Positions 6,769 through 34,924 of a stretch of 64,000 nt of DNA are shown here, one piece after another. The translations under genes were made by a program, and so were the position numbers. The notes under the pieces were generated by a model. It made no database searches. It had not been told where the DNA came from and was given only the letters and a program-made list of their open reading frames with translations. Origin of the DNA: Microvirga pudoricolor (GTDB taxonomy: Bacteria > Pseudomonadota > Alphaproteobacteria > Rhizobiales > Beijerinckiaceae); contig NZ_JAFEMB010000005.1 of assembly GCF_016892705.1 (NCBI RefSeq), positions 248,001-312,000 on the forward strand. The letters are read 5' to 3'. Each line of letters opens with the position of its first letter. The stretch's first letter is position 1.

Positions 6769-6797
6769 TTGCAGAACACAGCGGGAACAGTTAGCAT
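6769..6797 (+). promoter_or_regulatory. lexA promoter (sigma-70 type)
   Basis: TTGCAG and TAGCAT are separated by exactly 17 bp, a good housekeeping-type promoter. A LexA box begins on the last base of the -35 element and fills the spacer; a second box starts right after the -10. Transcription would start near 6804, giving a leader of about 45 nt before lexA. The arrangement is what an autorepressed lexA should show. Confidence 0.7.
6774..6788 (+). promoter_or_regulatory. LexA operator 1 (SOS box)
   Basis: A perfect GAAC-N7-GAAC direct repeat (spacer ACAGCGG), the alphaproteobacterial LexA site, placed between the -35 and -10 of the lexA promoter. LexA bound here would block RNA polymerase, giving autorepression. 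Confidence 0.85.
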
Positions 6798-17995: not shown

Positions 17996-20401
17996 TCAGA
18001 AGCGTGTGCCGCCCGAGAAGCGGAAGGCCTGTGTCTTGTCGCCGCCATACTTGACGCCGTTCGAAGCCAGGATGCCCTCGTCCTTCGACAGCGCGATGGC
18101 GTAGTCGAACCGGATCGGTCCGAGCGGCGAGGTCCAGAGGATCGAAGCGCCCACCGAGGAGCGGATCGTCTTGCTGTCGCGGACCAGGATACACTCCTGG
18201 GCGTTGATCAGGTTCTGGGTGCAGCCGGCGCCCACCGGTGCATAACCGTCGATGATGCCATTGCCGTTGGTGTCGAACACGGTCGGGCCCTTGTAGCCAA
18301 ACAGCGTACCGGCATCCGCGAACACCGCGCCCTTCAGGCCCAGGTCGCGCGGCAGGCCCCAGATCGGGAACTGCAGCTCGAGCGACCCGCCGAAATAGGT
18401 GGAGCCGCCGATGGCGTTGGCGTTGGTGTCCAGGCTCGACACGTCGCGCGGGCCGATGCCGTTGGTGGCGAAGCCGCGCACGAGGGACGGGCCGAGGAAG
18501 AACTGATCCACGATGCGCAGATCGCCGCCGCCCGTGTTCGCGTTGTTGTTCTTGCCCAGGCCCTGGATGTGACCGCCCTGGACGCGGGCGATACCGACCA
18601 CGTCGTCGAGAACCTCGTAATAGTAACGAGCGTCACCCGTGGCGCGGAAGTAGCGGGAATCGCCGCCGAGACCGGCAAAGTCCGTCTTGGCCTCGGCCCA
18701 GAAGCCGTTGCGCGGATCCTTGGTGTTGTCGAGGGTGTTGTAGTTGAACGTCAGGCCGGCGAGAGAGGTCAGGGTCTTGCCCTGCGATTCCTTGATCGCC
18801 AGCGAGGCTTCGCCGTTCGCTTCGCAGAAGTAGCGATTGGCCGTGCCATTGGGGTTCAGCTCGGTGTAGCCCGCGATCGGAATGGAGCAGTCGTTGTACG
18901 GCTGGTCGTAGTCGTTCGGGATCTCAAGATCCTGCTGGTACAGCGAATAGCGCGCCGTGATCGTGAACTCTTCCGTGAACGGCAGGCCGAGGCGGAGCTG
19001 GCCGCCGGTCATGCGGTTCTCGTAGCGCGAGTACCGGGTCTGGTCGCTGAACTTCGAGAACAGGTCGATACCGGCTGCCAAGCGATAGCCAAGGAAGTAC
19101 GGCTCGGTGAACGAGAAGTCGACGCCATTGGAGCGCTGACCGAGCTGACCCGCGAGGCGGACGTACTGGCCGCGGCCCAGGAAGTTGGTCTCGCTGACCG
19201 CCACCTCGCCGATGAAGCCGTCGGAGGTCGAGTAGCCGCCCGACACCGAGAAGGCGCCGGTGGACTGATCCTCCACATCCACGTTCACGACGACGCGATC
19301 GGGCGCGGAGCCCGGCTCGTTGGAGATGCGGACGCGCTTGAAGTAGCCGAGGTTGTTCAGGCGGCGTTCCGCTCGGTCGACGAGCACCTTGTTGTAGGGG
19401 TCGCCTTCACCGAGGTCGAACTCACGGCGGATCACGTAGTCGCGGGTACGGCTGTTGCCCCGGACGTTGATGCGCTCGATGTAGACACGCGGCCCGTCCT
19501 CGACCACGTAGCCGAGGTTGATGGTGGCGGTAGCGGGGTCGCGGGTGCCGATCGGACGGACCTGCGCGAAGGCATGGCCGTCGCGAACCACGTCGGTGGT
19601 GATGTTCTGAAGCGACTTCTCGACGGCATCTGCATTGTAGACGGAGCCGGCGGAGACGCCGATATCGTTCCGAAGGGCGTCGGCGTTCACGCCTGGGATG
19701 CGGGATTCCACGTTCACGCTGCCGACGCGGTACTGCTGTCCCTCATCCACGGCGATCGTGATGATGTAGCCTTCTTCCGCCGGATCGAACGTCACGTCGC
19801 TGGACACGAGACGGTAATCGGCGAAGCCGTTCTTGAGGTAATAGCGGCGGATCAGCTCGAGATCGTTGGACACGCGGTCCGGATCGTAGATGTCCGTGCT
19901 CTTCAGGAAGCTCAGCAGGTTGCTCTCGGTCGTCGTCATGACGCCGCGCAGACGGCTGGCGGAAATCTGGTTGTTGCCGACGAAGCGGATCTCGGCCACG
20001 CCGGTCTTGTCGCCCTCGTTGATCGTGTAGACCACGTCGACCGTGCCGTTGGGCAGATCCACGAGACGCGGGGTGACCGCGGCGAGGCCGCGGCCCTGGC
20101 GGCGGTAGACCTCGAGGATCCGCTGCACGTCGGCATCGACGGCCGCCTGGCTGTACCGGGTCCGGGCCCGGACCTGGAGGTCACCCTCGATCAGGCCCTT
20201 CTCGACCCGCTTGTTGCCCTCGATGACAACGCGGTTGATCACGGGCCCCTGTGCGGCCGCTGCTACGCGCCTGCTTCCCGGATTGGCCACCTGCTGCGCG
20301 AAAGCGGTCTCGGCGGCAGTGACTCCGGCAATCATGGCCGTCACGGCTATGGCTGCAGTCCTGGCCGGCTTTTTCCGGCGTGGCGTGGTCGTCGACATCA
20401 T
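17996..20401 (-). CDS. bamA: Outer membrane protein assembly factor BamA
   Basis: BamA is the essential Omp85 insertase that folds beta-barrel proteins into the outer membrane. I start it at the ATG pair opening MMSTTTPRRKK, which leads a signal peptide with cleavage near TAFAQ; a GTG and an ATG 30 and 24 bp farther upstream are alternatives. The roughly 800-aa protein has five POTRA repeats (about 60-410), then a 16-stranded barrel with the lid-lock motif VRGFATNGIGPRD and a C-terminal Phe after SGGTR. Two Cys pairs and a DTNGNGIID calcium-loop-like motif (residues 710-718) lie in predicted loops. rseP upstream and lpxD downstream are the usual neighbours. Confidence 0.95.
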   Translation of the reverse strand: MMSTTTPRRKKPARTAAIAVTAMIAGVTAAETAFAQQVANPGSRRVAAAAQGPVINRVVIEGNKRVEKGLIEGDLQVRARTRYSQAAVDADVQRILEVYRRQGRGLAAVTPRLVDLPNGTVDVVYTINEGDKTGVAEIRFVGNNQISASRLRGVMTTTESNLLSFLKSTDIYDPDRVSNDLELIRRYYLKNGFADYRLVSSDVTFDPAEEGYIITIAVDEGQQYRVGSVNVESRIPGVNADALRNDIGVSAGSVYNADAVEKSLQNITTDVVRDGHAFAQVRPIGTRDPATATINLGYVVEDGPRVYIERINVRGNSRTRDYVIRREFDLGEGDPYNKVLVDRAERRLNNLGYFKRVRISNEPGSAPDRVVVNVDVEDQSTGAFSVSGGYSTSDGFIGEVAVSETNFLGRGQYVRLAGQLGQRSNGVDFSFTEPYFLGYRLAAGIDLFSKFSDQTRYSRYENRMTGGQLRLGLPFTEEFTITARYSLYQQDLEIPNDYDQPYNDCSIPIAGYTELNPNGTANRYFCEANGEASLAIKESQGKTLTSLAGLTFNYNTLDNTKDPRNGFWAEAKTDFAGLGGDSRYFRATGDARYYYEVLDDVVGIARVQGGHIQGLGKNNNANTGGGDLRIVDQFFLGPSLVRGFATNGIGPRDVSSLDTNANAIGGSTYFGGSLELQFPIWGLPRDLGLKGAVFADAGTLFGYKGPTVFDTNGNGIIDGYAPVGAGCTQNLINAQECILVRDSKTIRSSVGASILWTSPLGPIRFDYAIALSKDEGILASNGVKYGGDKTQAFRFSGGTRF

Positions 20402-28751: not shown

Positions 28752-31700
28752 TCAGCTCACGTGCACGTCCACAACCCCAGGCACGGCGCGCAACGCCCCG
28801 GCGATCTGGGGGGAGGCCATGTACCTACCGGGAAGCTTGACCTCTACCTCGCGGTCGCCGTCGTCGAGGATCAGGACGAGGGAGACTTCACCCTCGCCTC
28901 TCGTCTTGAGACGCTCCAGCACGCTCGGCAGCGGGCGCTCGTCGCGCAGGAAGATGCGCATGCCCTTCTGGTGCTTGGCCAGCGCCGTCTCGAGCAGGTC
29001 CGCCATCCCGATTCGCGCCCTCACCTCTTCGCCGTCCATGCCGGCTTGAAGCATGAGCACCACCGCGTTGCCGGGCTCCAGCACGTCCCGAAGCTGGTTG
29101 AGACCCTCGGAGAATACGATGGCCTCGAAATGTCCGGTCTGATCGGACAGCATGACGATGCCCATCTTGTTGCCGGTCTTGGTCCGCCGCTCCTGCCGGC
29201 TCAACACTGTGGCGGCCACGCGCCCGGCCGAGTTGCCGTTCTTGACCGAGCGGCTGAAATCGGCCCAGCTTTGCACATAGAGCTTGGGCAACAGGGATGC
29301 ATATTCGTCAAGGGGATGGCCCGACAGGAAGAAGCCGACCGCGTCGTATTCCCGTTGAAGCTTCTGCGCGGCAGGCCATGGATCGTAGGCCGGAATGCGC
29401 AACTGAACATCGTCGGATGCCACGCCTCCGAACATGTCGATCATGCCGCCGTTGGCCGCCTCCAGCGCCTGCTGGGCCAAACCCATCATGGAATCGACGG
29501 CCGCGCAGGCCTTGGCGCGGTCGGGCTCAAGTTCGTCGAAGGCACCTGCCGCGATGAGATTTTCGAGCGTGCGCTTGTTGATGAGGCGCGGGTTGATGCG
29601 CCGCGCGAAGTCCGCGAGGCTCTTGAACGGCTTGTCCCCCCGCGCCTCTATCACGGCCTCGATCGCTTGGCGCCCGACACCCTTGATTGCGGCGAGCGCG
29701 TAGAGGATCGAGCCCTTGCCTTCGGCATCGTACTCGACGTCGAAAACCACACCGGAGCGGTTGATGGAAGGGGGCTCCACCTTCATGCCGAGACGCTGGG
29801 CCTCACGGCGGAATTCGGACAGCTTGTCGGTATTGTCGAGATCGAGCGTCATCGACGCGGCCAGGAATTCGGTTGGGTAGTTCGCCTTCAGATAAGCTGT
29901 CTGGAATGCCACCAGCGCGTAGGCTGCCGCGTGACTTTTGTTGAAGCCGTAATCGGCGAATTTCGCCAGCAGGTCGAAGATCTCGTTCGCCGTGGATTTG
30001 TCGAGGCCGCCCTTTAGCGCGCCAGACACGAAGCGCTCGCGCTGCGCGTCCATTTCGGCCTTGATCTTCTTGCCCATGGCTCGGCGCAGGAGGTCGGCGT
30101 CGCCAAGCGAATAGCCCGACAGAACCTTCGCGACCTCCATCACCTGTTCTTGATAGACGATGATGCCGAAGGTCTCGCGCAGGATCGGCTCCAGCTTCGG
30201 ATGCGGATACCAGTGCTCCTTGTTGTGCTCGTCCTTTCCGAGCTTGCGGGCGCAATAGACCGGGATGTTGGCCATCGGGCCCGGGCGGTAGAGGGCCACA
30301 AGGGCGATGATGTCCTCGAAACGGTCGGTCTCCATCTCCACAAGCGCCTTGCGCATGCCGGCGGATTCCACCTGGAACACGCCAACCGTCTCGCCCCGCT
30401 GCAGCATCTCGTAGGTCTTGCGGTCGTCCAGCGGGAGAGCCGAGAGATCGATGTGGATGCCCGTGCGGGCAATCAGGTCGGTGGCGGTGCGCAGGACCGT
30501 GAGCGTCTTCAGGCCGAGGAAGTCGAACTTCACGAGCCCCGCCTGCTCGACCCACTTCATGTTGAACTGGGTCACCCGCATGCCCGTCTTCGGGTCTCGG
30601 TACAGCGGCACGAGCTCCTGCAGGGGACGGTCGCCGATCACGACGCCCGCCGCGTGCGTCGAAGCGTGCCGGTGCAGGCCCTCGAGCTTTTGGGCGATGT
30701 CGAGCATGCGCTTGACGACCGGCTCTTCCTCGATGGCAGCCTGCAGCTTCGGCTCGCCTTCGATGGCCTGCGCCAGCGTTACCGGATTGGCCGGGTTCTG
30801 CGGCACCAGCTTGGTGAGCTTGTCGACTTGGCCGTAAGGCATTTCCAGCACGCGGCCCACGTCGCGCATCACACCGCGCGCAAGGAGCGTGCCGAAGGTG
30901 ATGATCTGCGCGACCTGCTCCTCGCCGTAACGCTGCTGTACGTATTCGATCACGCGTTCGCGACCCTCGACACAGAAGTCGATGTCGAAGTCCGGCATCG
31001 ACACACGTTCGGGATTCAGAAAGCGCTCGAACAGTAGGCCGAAGCGGATCGGATCGAGATCGGTGATCGTCAGTGCGTAAGCGACAAGCGAACCGGCACC
31101 CGAACCACGCCCCGGCCCAACCGGAATGTCGTGGTCCTTCGCCCATTTGATGAAGTCGGCCACGATGAGGAAGTAGCCGGGAAATTTCATGTTGCGGATC
31201 ACGCTCACCTCATAGGCAAGGCGATCGTGATAATCCTGCTCGGTCAATCCCGGTGCCGGCCCGTGCGCGGCAAGGCGAGCGAGCAGGCCTTCCTTGGCCT
31301 GACGCTCCAACTCCTCGCCCTCATCGAGGGTTTTGGCCTCTTCGCCGCGACCGAAACTCGGCAGGATCGGCTTATGCGTCGTCACACGGGTCGAGCAGCG
31401 CATCGCGATTTCGACACTCGACGCCAGCGCGTCCGGCAGGTCCTTGAAGAGCTCCATCATCTCCCGGCGTGTCTTGAACGCGTGCTCGGGGGAAAACCGG
31501 CGCCGGTTGCCGTCGGACACGATGCGGCCTTCCGCGATGGCGAGCAGGGCATCGTGAGCCTCGTAGTCGTCCGGCGCCTTGAAGAACGGCTCGTTGGTGG
31601 CCACGATGGGGAGAGAGTTGCGGTCTGCCATCGCGATGAGCTCGCCTTCGACGAGACGTTCCTCGTCGAGCTTGTGGCGCTGAATCTCGACATAGAGCTG

Positions 31701-32225
31701 CGAACCGAACGCGTTCTTCAGCGTGTCCAGCCGTGCTTGCGCCAATTCCTCGCGACCGCCCATGCGCAGTGCGCAGTCGATGGGACCGGTGAAGCCGCCT
31801 GTGAGCGCGATCAGGCCCTCGCAGTATTGCGACAGGACCGTGGACGACAAGCGCGGTGTATCGCCCAGCGGCACATCGAAATAAGCGCGGCTCACGAGGC
31901 GCATGAGATTGCGGTAGCCTTCCGCATTCTGCGCCAGCAGCACCACGTTTGCCGCCTGCGGCTGCGAGCGGGCGATGGGGTCAGGTTCCTCGAAACAGAC
32001 GGAAAGCTGAACGCCTGGGATGGGCTGAATTCCCATGCCGGAAAGCTTTTGGGAGAATTCGAGCGCACCGAACAGGTTGTTGGCGTCCGTCAGCGCCAGG
32101 GCGGGCTGCTTGTCGGCCCCAGCCAGCTTTGCCAGGTGCTCGACCTTGATCGCCCCTTCCAGCAGCGAATAGGACGAGTGGACATGAAGATGGACGAAGC
32201 CGATCTCTTGGAGGACGCGGGACAT
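28752..32225 (-). CDS. dnaE: DNA polymerase III subunit alpha
   Basis: DnaE is the replicative polymerase. The 1157-aa protein has an N-terminal PHP domain (HLHVHSSYSLLEGA, residues 12-25), the palm with catalytic acidic cluster MPDFDIDFCVEGRERV (residue 410 on), a helix-hairpin-helix region and a C-terminal OB fold. Length and the intact clamp and tau regions fit DnaE1 rather than the error-prone DnaE2/ImuC. A 7-bp hairpin and two TTCCACAGG repeats lie in the 122 bp between it and the upstream small SOS gene, with which it may share transcripts. Confidence 0.95.
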   Translation of the reverse strand: MSRVLQEIGFVHLHVHSSYSLLEGAIKVEHLAKLAGADKQPALALTDANNLFGALEFSQKLSGMGIQPIPGVQLSVCFEEPDPIARSQPQAANVVLLAQNAEGYRNLMRLVSRAYFDVPLGDTPRLSSTVLSQYCEGLIALTGGFTGPIDCALRMGGREELAQARLDTLKNAFGSQLYVEIQRHKLDEERLVEGELIAMADRNSLPIVATNEPFFKAPDDYEAHDALLAIAEGRIVSDGNRRRFSPEHAFKTRREMMELFKDLPDALASSVEIAMRCSTRVTTHKPILPSFGRGEEAKTLDEGEELERQAKEGLLARLAAHGPAPGLTEQDYHDRLAYEVSVIRNMKFPGYFLIVADFIKWAKDHDIPVGPGRGSGAGSLVAYALTITDLDPIRFGLLFERFLNPERVSMPDFDIDFCVEGRERVIEYVQQRYGEEQVAQIITFGTLLARGVMRDVGRVLEMPYGQVDKLTKLVPQNPANPVTLAQAIEGEPKLQAAIEEEPVVKRMLDIAQKLEGLHRHASTHAAGVVIGDRPLQELVPLYRDPKTGMRVTQFNMKWVEQAGLVKFDFLGLKTLTVLRTATDLIARTGIHIDLSALPLDDRKTYEMLQRGETVGVFQVESAGMRKALVEMETDRFEDIIALVALYRPGPMANIPVYCARKLGKDEHNKEHWYPHPKLEPILRETFGIIVYQEQVMEVAKVLSGYSLGDADLLRRAMGKKIKAEMDAQRERFVSGALKGGLDKSTANEIFDLLAKFADYGFNKSHAAAYALVAFQTAYLKANYPTEFLAASMTLDLDNTDKLSEFRREAQRLGMKVEPPSINRSGVVFDVEYDAEGKGSILYALAAIKGVGRQAIEAVIEARGDKPFKSLADFARRINPRLINKRTLENLIAAGAFDELEPDRAKACAAVDSMMGLAQQALEAANGGMIDMFGGVASDDVQLRIPAYDPWPAAQKLQREYDAVGFFLSGHPLDEYASLLPKLYVQSWADFSRSVKNGNSAGRVAATVLSRQERRTKTGNKMGIVMLSDQTGHFEAIVFSEGLNQLRDVLEPGNAVVLMLQAGMDGEEVRARIGMADLLETALAKHQKGMRIFLRDERPLPSVLERLKTRGEGEVSLVLILDDGDREVEVKLPGRYMASPQIAGALRAVPGVVDVHVS

Positions 32226-32347: not shown

Positions 32348-32449
32348 CTATACCATCGGGGAAAGGACTAGGGACCAAACTGCAATGGCACTGCCGAAGA
32401 TCGCCAGGGAGACGAGTTCAACAGCGGTTTCGATGAACGAGCGAAGCAT
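32348..32449 (-). CDS. Small SOS-controlled single-span membrane protein (SidA-like candidate)
   Basis: A 33-codon gene with a clear GAGG ribosome-binding site five bases before its ATG. The peptide starts MLRSF, has two acidic residues (Glu7, Glu11) and then a hydrophobic span from about residue 12 to 30 with Trp25: a single membrane helix. A perfect LexA box lies 33 bp upstream, inside a candidate promoter. In Caulobacter, SidA is a 29-aa SOS-induced inner-membrane protein that blocks division through FtsW. I recall its gene lying beside dnaE there but could not check. Size, topology, LexA control and position all fit; I cannot align the sequences. dnaE follows on the same strand. Confidence 0.65.
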   Translation of the reverse strand: MLRSFIETAVELVSLAIFGSAIAVWSLVLSPMV

Positions 32450-32476
32450 TAGAACCTCATTGTTTCCGTTATGTTC

Positions 32477-32505
32477 ATGTTCGTTCGTCTTATGTTCTGT
32501 GTAAA
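32477..32505 (-). promoter_or_regulatory. Candidate promoter of the small SOS gene
   Basis: TTTACA-N17-GAACAT on the minus strand, with the LexA box lying entirely within the spacer, the same layout as at lexA. The -10 matches only three consensus bases, so exact placement is uncertain. It could also feed dnaE. Confidence 0.45.
32483..32497 (-). promoter_or_regulatory. LexA operator (SOS box) of the small membrane gene
   Basis: A perfect GAAC-N7-GAAC direct repeat (spacer ATAAGAC) in the same orientation relative to its gene as lexA operator 1. Two further GAAC copies follow at 32479 and 32473 with other spacings. It ends 33 bp before the start codon. Confidence 0.8.
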
Positions 32506-32950: not shown

Positions 32951-33646
32951 TCAAGGCAATTGGACGATCTGTCCCTCGCGGATCGTGACGCGCCGGTCCA
33001 TGCGGGCGGCAAGGTCCATGTTGTGCGTGGCAATCAGCGCGGCGAGGCGGGAGGCGCGCACGATGGCGACGAGGGTCTGGAAGACCCGGTCAGCCGTGTG
33101 GGGATCGAGGTTGCCCGTCGGCTCGTCGGCCAGCAGAAGCCGGGGCGCATTCGCCACCGCGCGGGCAATCGCGACGCGCTGCTGCTCACCGCCGGACAGT
33201 TCTCCTGGGCGGTTCTCAAGGCGCTGGCCGAGCCCCAGAAAAGTGAGGATCTGTGTCGCCCGTTCCTTTGCCTCACCCCGGGGCAGGCCGCGGATGATTT
33301 GAGGCAGCACCACGTTCTCGATGGCGGAGAATTCCGGCAGGAGATGGTGAAATTGATAGACGAAACCCAGCTCTTCCCTTCGGAGCTTGGTTCGCTCCTG
33401 GTCATTCATGGATGCGGTCGGTCGCGATCCGACGAAGACTTCGCCGCCGTCTGGTTTCTCCAGCAGCCCCGCCACGTGCAGAAGGGTGGACTTTCCCGTG
33501 CCGGACGGCGCCACCAGGGCCACGATCTCGCCGGGCCAGATGGCCAGATCCGTGCCGCACAGCACTTCGAGCGCGCCGCCTGCCTGAGGGTAGCGGCGCT
33601 CGACCTTCGACAGGTAGAGAGCGGGTTCGGGTTGACCGTTTGCCAT
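32951..33646 (-). CDS. lolD: Lipoprotein-releasing ABC transporter ATPase LolD
   Basis: LolD powers release of outer-membrane lipoproteins from the inner membrane to LolA. The 231-aa ATPase has Walker [10 protein letters not shown] (46-54), Q-loop [14 protein letters not shown], signature LSGGEQQR, Walker [13 protein letters not shown] and the H-loop [18 protein letters not shown] is typical of LolD as opposed to FtsE or MacB. It follows the lolC stop by 3 bp. Confidence 0.95.
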
Positions 33647-33649
33647 GGA

Positions 33650-34924
33650 TCACCCGTAACGCAGGGCTTCGACCGGGTCGAGCTTCGCAGCCCGCCAAGA
33701 CGGGTAGAGCGTCGCCAGAAGCGACAGGATCATCGACATGAGCAGAACCGAGATGACTTCCCCCGGATTGATGACGGCCGGAATCTCAGACAGGAATCGC
33801 ACGGTCGGATCCCACAGCTGCCGATTGAGAGCCCAGGACAGGAAGTTTTGGATGCTCTGGATATTGAGCGTGAACAGCATGCCCAACGCGAACCCGGCAA
33901 TCGTCCCGACTATGCCGATGGACGCGCCGGTGATGAGAAACACTCGCATGATGGCACCTCGCGTGGCGCCCATGGTCCGCAGGATCGCAATGTCGTTGGA
34001 CTTGTCCTTCACCAGCATGATGAGGCCCGACACGATGTTCAGGGCCGCCACGAGCACGATGAGCGTGAGGATCATGAACATCACGTTCCGCTCGACCTCC
34101 AAGGCACCGAAAAACGTTCGGTTGCGCTGGCGCCAATCAGTCATGAGGATGGGACGTCCCGCCGCCTCGTCGATGGCGGCGCGAGCCTGGTCCACCTTGT
34201 CGGCATCGTCGAGATAGACCTCGATCAACTGCACGTCGCCGTTGCGGTTGAAGTAGCTCTGCGCTTCGGACAGAGGCATGTACACAAAGGTCGAGTCGAA
34301 TTCCGACATGCCGATTTCGAAGATCGCCTTGATGGGATAGCCCTTCACGCGTGGCGCCGTGCCGAAGGGTGTCGCGGCGCCTTTCGGGGTGATGAGCGTG
34401 AAGGTGTCGCCAGCCTGAAGCGAGAGCGATTCCGCCAGCCGGCGCCCAATGGCGACGCCTTCGCCGGCATCGAAGTCCTGCAGGGAACCCTGAGTGATGT
34501 GATTCGCGATGTTCTCGATCTTGCGCAGATCGTCGCCCCGCACACCGCGAACCAGGACGCCACTGCCGCCATAAGGCGAGGACCCGAAGGCTTGTCCCTC
34601 CACTAGCGGAAGCGCCCGTCTCACGCCAGGCACGGCGGCGATGCGCTTCGTGACCTCGTCATAATCGGTCAATGGGGAGTCGATGGGCGCCACGAAGATA
34701 TGGCCGTTGATGCCAACGATCTTGTTTAGCAGCTCGGCCCGGAAACCGTTCATCACCGACAGCACGACGATAAGGGTGGCGACCCCTAGCATGATGCCGA
34801 GGAACGAGAAGCCGGCGATGACGGAAACGAACCCCTCTCGACGGCGCGTGCGGAGGTATCGCCCCGCCAGCATCCACTCGAAACGCGCAAAAGGCTTGGT
34901 CGTGGAGGTGCCGGCTGTTGCCAT
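33650..34924 (-). CDS. lolC: Lipoprotein-releasing ABC transporter permease LolC/LolE
   Basis: The membrane subunit of the Lol exporter. One N-terminal helix (about 30-55, FVSVIAGFSFLGIMLGVATLIVV), a periplasmic domain (about 60-270), and three C-terminal helices make the MacB/FtsX-type topology; the end RAAKLDPVEALRYG is the family terminus. Only one permease gene is present, so the transporter may be a LolF-type homodimer with LolD, as in many alphaproteobacteria. The cluster proS-lolC-lolD is standard for the group. Confidence 0.93.
   Translation of the reverse strand: MATAGTSTTKPFARFEWMLAGRYLRTRRREGFVSVIAGFSFLGIMLGVATLIVVLSVMNGFRAELLNKIVGINGHIFVAPIDSPLTDYDEVTKRIAAVPGVRRALPLVEGQAFGSSPYGGSGVLVRGVRGDDLRKIENIANHITQGSLQDFDAGEGVAIGRRLAESLSLQAGDTFTLITPKGAATPFGTAPRVKGYPIKAIFEIGMSEFDSTFVYMPLSEAQSYFNRNGDVQLIEVYLDDADKVDQARAAIDEAAGRPILMTDWRQRNRTFFGALEVERNVMFMILTLIVLVAALNIVSGLIMLVKDKSNDIAILRTMGATRGAIMRVFLITGASIGIVGTIAGFALGMLFTLNIQSIQNFLSWALNRQLWDPTVRFLSEIPAVINPGEVISVLLMSMILSLLATLYPSWRAAKLDPVEALRYG

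Follow-up and report, generated by a model that had tools for sequence, protein, structure and literature searches.

The closest described counterpart of the gene reported here is Caulobacter SidA, a LexA-controlled, SOS-induced protein of 29 amino acids that binds FtsW and keeps FtsW/I/N inactive, as outlined in PMC4211646. A 2026 paper places the SidA helix on TM7 of FtsW in a low-confidence model (PMC13396833). The titles and abstract openings surveyed name no SidA homologue outside Caulobacter; the founding paper (Genes Dev 2011) may mention some. DidA, also from Caulobacter, resembles the present gene product in being a small membrane protein that acts on the late divisome, but differs from it in its length of 71 amino acids, its SOS-independent control by DriD rather than LexA and its binding to FtsN (PMC4211646). 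YneA of Bacillus, SosA of Staphylococcus and ChiZ of Mycobacterium are likewise damage-induced membrane division inhibitors for which an action on FtsW is proposed, although they are larger and contain other domains, such as the LysM domain of ChiZ (PMC13396833). SulA of E. coli is a further LexA-controlled division brake, in this case directed against FtsZ polymerisation (PMC4211646). Few lineages are known to have SOS division inhibitors. YneA also contains a LysM domain, and the sequences and locations of YneA, SosA and ChiZ have no known relationship to those of the gene described below.

This gene lies in Microvirga pudoricolor, in a stretch of 64,000 nucleotides that was analysed as a whole and is termed the window. 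It probably encodes a divergent SidA-type SOS division inhibitor, with division arrest and the FtsW target carried over by analogy from Caulobacter SidA. As at the SidA loci, a short single-helix open reading frame (ORF) of about 30 residues is located directly upstream of dnaE, in the same orientation, behind a promoter containing a GAACN7GAAC LexA box, and the two sequences can be bridged through intermediates. In contrast to SidA, the window peptide has 33 rather than 29 residues, with a longer C-terminus ending in SPMV, its gene has two LexA boxes in tandem at a spacing of 21 bp, and the curated SidA model NF033228 does not match the peptide.

Organisation of the locus

The features of the small gene and its surroundings, all on the minus strand, are the following.
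28752–32225, minus: dnaE (DNA polymerase III alpha, DnaE1), downstream of the small gene (TIGR00594, 1213 bits; Pfam)
32348–32449, minus: 33-codon gene for a putative SidA-type single-helix membrane protein (ORF translation, Microvirga conservation, hydrophobicity, family profile match)
32455–32458, minus: GAGG ribosome-binding site, 5 nt upstream of the ATG
32462–32476, minus: LexA half-site pair 2, GAACATAACGGAAAC, one mismatch, exactly 21 bp past box 1 (read from the sequence and the aligned rows)
32477–32482, minus: presumed -10 hexamer GAACAT, placed by its 17-bp spacing from TTTACA
32483–32497, minus: LexA box 1, GAACATAAGACGAAC, exact GAACN7GAAC within the -35/-10 spacer (motif scan and conservation)
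32500–32505, minus: -35 element TTTACA (38/38 rows)
32951–33646, minus: ABC ATPase (LolD-like), upstream (PF00005)
33650–34924, minus: FtsX/MacB-type permease (LolC/E-like; PF12704, PF02687)

The ORF running from 32449 to 32348 on the minus strand translates as MLRSFIETAVELVSLAIFGSAIAVWSLVLSPMV, followed by a stop codon. The 33-residue peptide displays a single hydrophobic stretch at residues 12–30, with a Kyte-Doolittle mean of 2.13. The start of dnaE, likewise on the minus strand, lies 122 bp downstream of the ORF. Thus the 33-codon gene, its GAGG, its one hydrophobic stretch and its position beside dnaE, as given in a preliminary description, were all found in place. Neither Pfam nor NCBIfam contains a family matching the window peptide (residues 2–33; the NCBIfam search was repeated on the full peptide). 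Ten positions, among them R3, T8, E11 and P31, are invariant in nine Microvirga peptides, and GGAG is conserved at 80% or more near the position of the ribosome-binding site in the 38 aligned rows. The gene and its frame are well supported as a real small membrane-protein gene.

The preliminary description had also proposed a perfect LexA box set inside a promoter. Box 1 is exact, and since TTTACA precedes the presumed -10 hexamer by 17 bp, it falls inside the -35/-10 spacer; box 2, which like TTTACA was no part of that description, is expected to lie over the transcription start site. The half-sites of box 1 and TTTACA are invariant in the 38 rows; the GAACAT of the window is a poor -10 hexamer, where relatives carry AAATAT, AATAAT and similar sequences, and a strict sigma-70 scan returned no promoter at the small-gene locus. 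Within the 64-kb window the exact GAACN7GAAC pattern occurs three times against 1.55 expected, and three or more matches were obtained in 20 of 100 shuffles. Box 1 of the window is thus not significant by itself, its significance deriving from conservation among the Microvirga copies. The other two exact matches, at 6774–6788 and 19355–19369, have G+C-rich spacers and are likely chance occurrences. From the LexA sites and their layout, an SOS promoter of the small gene is a well-supported prediction.

Conservation within Microvirga

The scan for the small gene yielded 38 loci, all titled Microvirga, the closest being that of M. aerophila (85%). Microvirga belongs to Hyphomicrobiales, Methylobacteriaceae in the NCBI taxonomy, so the locus lies outside Caulobacterales, as had been suggested. 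In 37 of the 38 loci the 33-codon frame from the ATG is present and is preceded by an exact box, located at -48 to -51; the exact box 1 is thereby retained in all 37 intact copies, with 18 different N7 spacers among the 38 rows that include the window. Box 2 reads as an exact GAACN7GAAC in 34/38 rows, and the box pair with its 21-bp spacing is found in 35/38 loci when one mismatch is allowed. The remaining locus (L237), a second one in M. lupini Lut6 (KI912003.1, around 2001–2090), contains a decayed copy of the gene with 67% identity over residues 4–32, a copy that has neither a start codon nor a LexA box.

Conservation of the DNA only, and not of the frame, would have spoken against a coding function; the outcome was the opposite. 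In the 38 sequences composed of the 37 intact loci and the window, with L237 dropped, dN/dS is 0.19 in the frame, indicating purifying selection; the two alternative frames give 1.12 and 4.04. Heterozygosity at codon positions 1, 2 and 3 amounts to 0.17, 0.06 and 0.38, respectively. The frame thus appears to evolve like a protein and the DNA upstream of it like operator sites.

LexA-type sites elsewhere in the genome

Genome-wide, exact GAACN7GAAC matches number 152, against 99 for the backwards control, so that many single genomic matches are attributable to chance. Around AT-rich matches, 16 stretches chosen by eye among the matches listed were fetched, and in these, boxes precede recA, ssb, dnaB, a Pol IV-like gene and a radical SAM gene (TIGR03916, rSAM_link_UDG), which supports use of the SOS motif across this genome. 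These names come from seven box-proximal proteins, five of which were named and two of which had no match; six of the seven were scanned as first stretches only, with scores that are mostly below the full-length cut-offs. One more box stretch contains a RuvB-like ORF, as judged by eye.

At the dnaB locus (L196; G000:C9 near 9459) the LexA-box match is located shortly 5' of the ORF containing the dnaB start; SOS control of this replicative helicase would be unusual, if so. At another site (L195; G000:C8 near 1888557) a box is followed after 40 bp by an ORF that is truncated by the end of the stretch, spans 368 residues or more and has a membrane segment. Its first 110 residues gave no NCBIfam match; this ORF is possibly a previously undescribed SOS gene.

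Distribution upstream of dnaE

A search with one peptide gave matches in 69 of the family's 199 genomes at E ≤ 1, chance matches included. With a family profile, built from this family's own members, 125 of these genomes were matched at E ≤ 0.01, and they cover 29 of 43 genera. The search of the order matched 55/297 genomes at E ≤ 0.05, and the class-wide profile search 24/385 at E ≤ 0.1, the latter mostly chance pieces within long proteins as judged by context. Once two duplicates had been dropped and three DnaE loci left out, 80 distinct family, order and class loci were re-examined jointly. dnaE is present within the stretch in 53 of these, and in 51 of the 53 it lies downstream on the same strand. 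An exact box is positioned near the start in 49 of the 53 dnaE-linked loci, against 1/53 for the control pattern CAAGN7CAAG, and is lacking in the other four (L019, L020, L065 and L067). Among the 27 loci without dnaE in the stretch, four have an exact box and constitute unlinked homologues. The remaining 23, with neither dnaE nor an exact box, were treated as chance matches.

Three loci of genus g21, in the window's own family, encode a longer version of the peptide with an arginine-rich N-terminal extension (L011, L013 and L016). In these the box precedes the matched stretch by 117–134 bp, and dnaE is absent from the 3-kb locus.

A search independent of peptide similarity was based on DnaE1, sought in 385 genomes of the class and matched in 322. 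Up to 1.4 kb upstream of dnaE was inspected in 80 genomes hand-picked for family spread among the matches listed, two of which belong to the window's own family and two of which gave stretches shortened by contig ends. An exact box lies within 600 bp upstream of dnaE in 15 of the 80, L163 being the one among these that belongs to the window's family. All 15 boxes are followed, 10–100 bp past the box start, by an ATG or GTG ORF that spans 25–50 codons and encodes a hydrophobic stretch. Upstream of dnaE the control pattern occurs in 0/80 genomes, and the opposite strand carries six boxes, none with such an ORF. No exact box was found within 600 bp of dnaE in the other 65 of the 80 genomes; thus the module is common in the sample and far from universal. 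Several alphaproteobacterial families outside the range of NCBI's SidA model share this arrangement, which is the broader outcome of the analysis.

Relationship to Caulobacter SidA

The dnaE of C. crescentus is listed as CC1926, and sidA is, we presume, its neighbour. Loci from the Caulobacter side were taken from a family (f65) treated as Caulobacteraceae-like because it is the closest to Caulobacter CtrA (88%) among 62 genomes. For g452, within f65, a Caulobacter S-layer protein match at E ≤ 1e-20 was obtained in 24/75 genomes, the best with 82–84% identity, the 84% applying over the full query, and the label 'Caulobacter-like' derives only from these S-layer matches and CtrA. A hydrophobic ORF of 28–30 residues is located upstream of dnaE in all 20 f65 loci retrieved from 75 genomes with a DnaE match; an exact box lies no more than 600 bp from dnaE in 11 of these loci and is absent from that interval in nine. 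At E ≤ 10 the NCBIfam model NF033228, titled 'cell division inhibitor SidA', matches all 17 distinct f65 peptides, a result that bears out, for Caulobacteraceae-like genomes, the proposed proximity of sidA to dnaE. The curated cut-off of 35 bits is passed by 11 of the 17, including 5/5 from g452; the other six score 11.0–33.5 bits, and NF033228 thus covers that group incompletely.

On the window side NF033228 matched none of 25 peptides (the window peptide and 24 relatives) at E ≤ 10, and none of the 15 bridging peptides of the class sample, L163 of the window's family included. The direct profile comparison with SidA is weak, with a score of 16.1, a probability of 12–23% over subsets and only residues 1–22 aligned; this score was reached by 5/300 full column shuffles and 8/300 shuffles of hydrophobic columns. 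A plain HMM of the Hyphomicrobiales side (A1), run against 1894 ORFs of 100 dnaE-upstream loci, did not single out SidA (best E 0.04), and since it gives weak matches only, HMMER alone fails to connect the window with SidA.

In contrast to the direct comparison, the bridged one is strong. The 14 class-sample peptides of other families were selected by position, box and hydrophobicity, without regard to similarity; the Hyphomicrobiales-side profile matches them with an E of 4e-7 and the SidA-side profile matches the same 14 with an E of 6e-6. For five of the intermediates (L090, L095, L107, L143 and L147) and four of the SidA-side peptides (L167, L172, L180 and L182), an inner start codon was picked manually. 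None of 200 shuffles, of all columns or of hydrophobic columns only, reached the bridge scores in any of the four controls, nor did any of 300 in an earlier set. A bridge driven by L163, from the window's own family, was ruled out, because its removal and leave-one-out runs leave scores of 25–29 and 22–25. We therefore regard the window gene as a probable relative of SidA, linked to it by descent via intermediates, and do not assign it to NF033228. Short membrane helices can converge, which counts against homology. The parallel with SidA drawn in the preliminary description thus holds for the gene, its predicted regulation and its probable relationship, while direct similarity is weak and the curated model does not recognise the window peptide.

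Proposed function

On the proposed mechanism, LexA would cover the promoter by occupying its tandem pair of GAACN7GAAC-type sites until, upon DNA damage, RecA triggered LexA self-cleavage and the 33-residue protein was made. LexA binding and damage induction are predicted here from the site and the regulon. The protein would then insert into the inner membrane through its one helix, probably with the short positive N-terminus (R3) inside, and could hold the FtsW/FtsI/FtsN complex in an inactive state pending repair of the damage. Division arrest, with FtsW as target, is expected by analogy: position, regulation, size and bridged homology make it most likely that the Microvirga protein acts as SidA does.

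TisB is a small SOS-controlled single-helix membrane peptide; toxins of the TisB/DinQ type are controlled by antisense RNA and depolarise the membrane. A membrane-active toxin of this kind is the main alternative to a division inhibitor: the small gene would encode an SOS-induced single-helix peptide that lowers the membrane potential, as TisB or DinQ, and would leave the divisome alone. The size of the protein, its one helix and its predicted regulation by SOS would suit such a peptide equally well (for DinQ, PMC3567139), but a locus shared with SidA and a bridged sequence relationship argue against it, and the ten positions invariant among the Microvirga peptides should exceed the needs of a generic helix; we therefore regard this reading as unlikely. 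A SidA homologue that has drifted to another membrane target, be it FtsN, FtsI or a non-divisome protein, also seems quite improbable. The sequence beyond the N-terminal part is strongly unlike SidA, the direct alignment ending at residue 22, as drift would predict; position, size and regulation are nevertheless unchanged, and published models place ChiZ, SosA, SidA and YneA alike on TM7 of FtsW, with low confidence for the first three (PMC13396833).

Assignment of the LexA boxes

The same promoter could in principle serve the polymerase, with LexA controlling dnaE and the small ORF being part of the dnaE mRNA, either as a leader peptide or as a spacer that is merely transcribed. Such a reading is in keeping with the downstream, same-strand position of dnaE in nearly all the dnaE-linked loci described above and in all but one of the 37 intact Microvirga loci, with the lack of a terminator between the two genes in a simple scan and with the reverse-orientation GAACN7GAAC found upstream of two of the three g21 dnaE genes (L242, -140, G060; L246, -388, G091). 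Three rearrangements separate the alternatives. In M. solisilvae (L209, 1686–2100) the promoter and small gene form an inverted segment with respect to dnaE, in which both boxes are preserved; G008 carries the peptide and its box at a distance of 1.36 Mb from dnaE, and the 600 bp upstream of that dnaE contain no box; in g21 (G091, G060 and G020) the peptide and box remain beside LolC-like genes, identified by eye, with dnaE elsewhere. Because all three keep the box with the peptide, the box is assigned to the small gene, and as the in-frame dN/dS is also unlike that of a leader peptide, control of dnaE with the small ORF as its leader or spacer is very improbable. LexA boxes before dnaE in alphaproteobacteria are thus suggested to serve the small gene and not the polymerase.

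We lean towards a broader reading of the SidA-type inhibitor, in which the module of LexA box, small membrane protein and dnaE is ancestral to much of Alphaproteobacteria and constitutes the SulA counterpart of the class, SidA being no speciality of Caulobacter; read-through from the SOS promoter might then couple the division brake to the supply of replicative polymerase. Its small size and rapid evolution would put the protein beyond the reach of current models, and the module would for this reason have escaped notice outside Caulobacteraceae. The damage checkpoint known from Caulobacter may thus be widespread. If so, Hyphomicrobiales and several other alphaproteobacterial families have a candidate at a fixed address upstream of dnaE, which would make the checkpoint testable by deletion in many species, and the natural diversity of SidA would help to map the residues that contact FtsW.

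Neighbouring genes

The genes upstream of the small gene encode the ABC ATPase and the FtsX/MacB-type permease listed above; the Lol naming of the ATPase is our own reading of these matches. An ABC ATPase-like sequence, judged by eye, also accompanies the small gene in L209 and in the g21 locus L013. In addition to dnaE, two further DnaE-type genes, at G000:C16:14349-17282 and G000:C11:354751-357684, score 544 and 533 bits to TIGR00594, respectively, and are probably DnaE2/ImuC copies.
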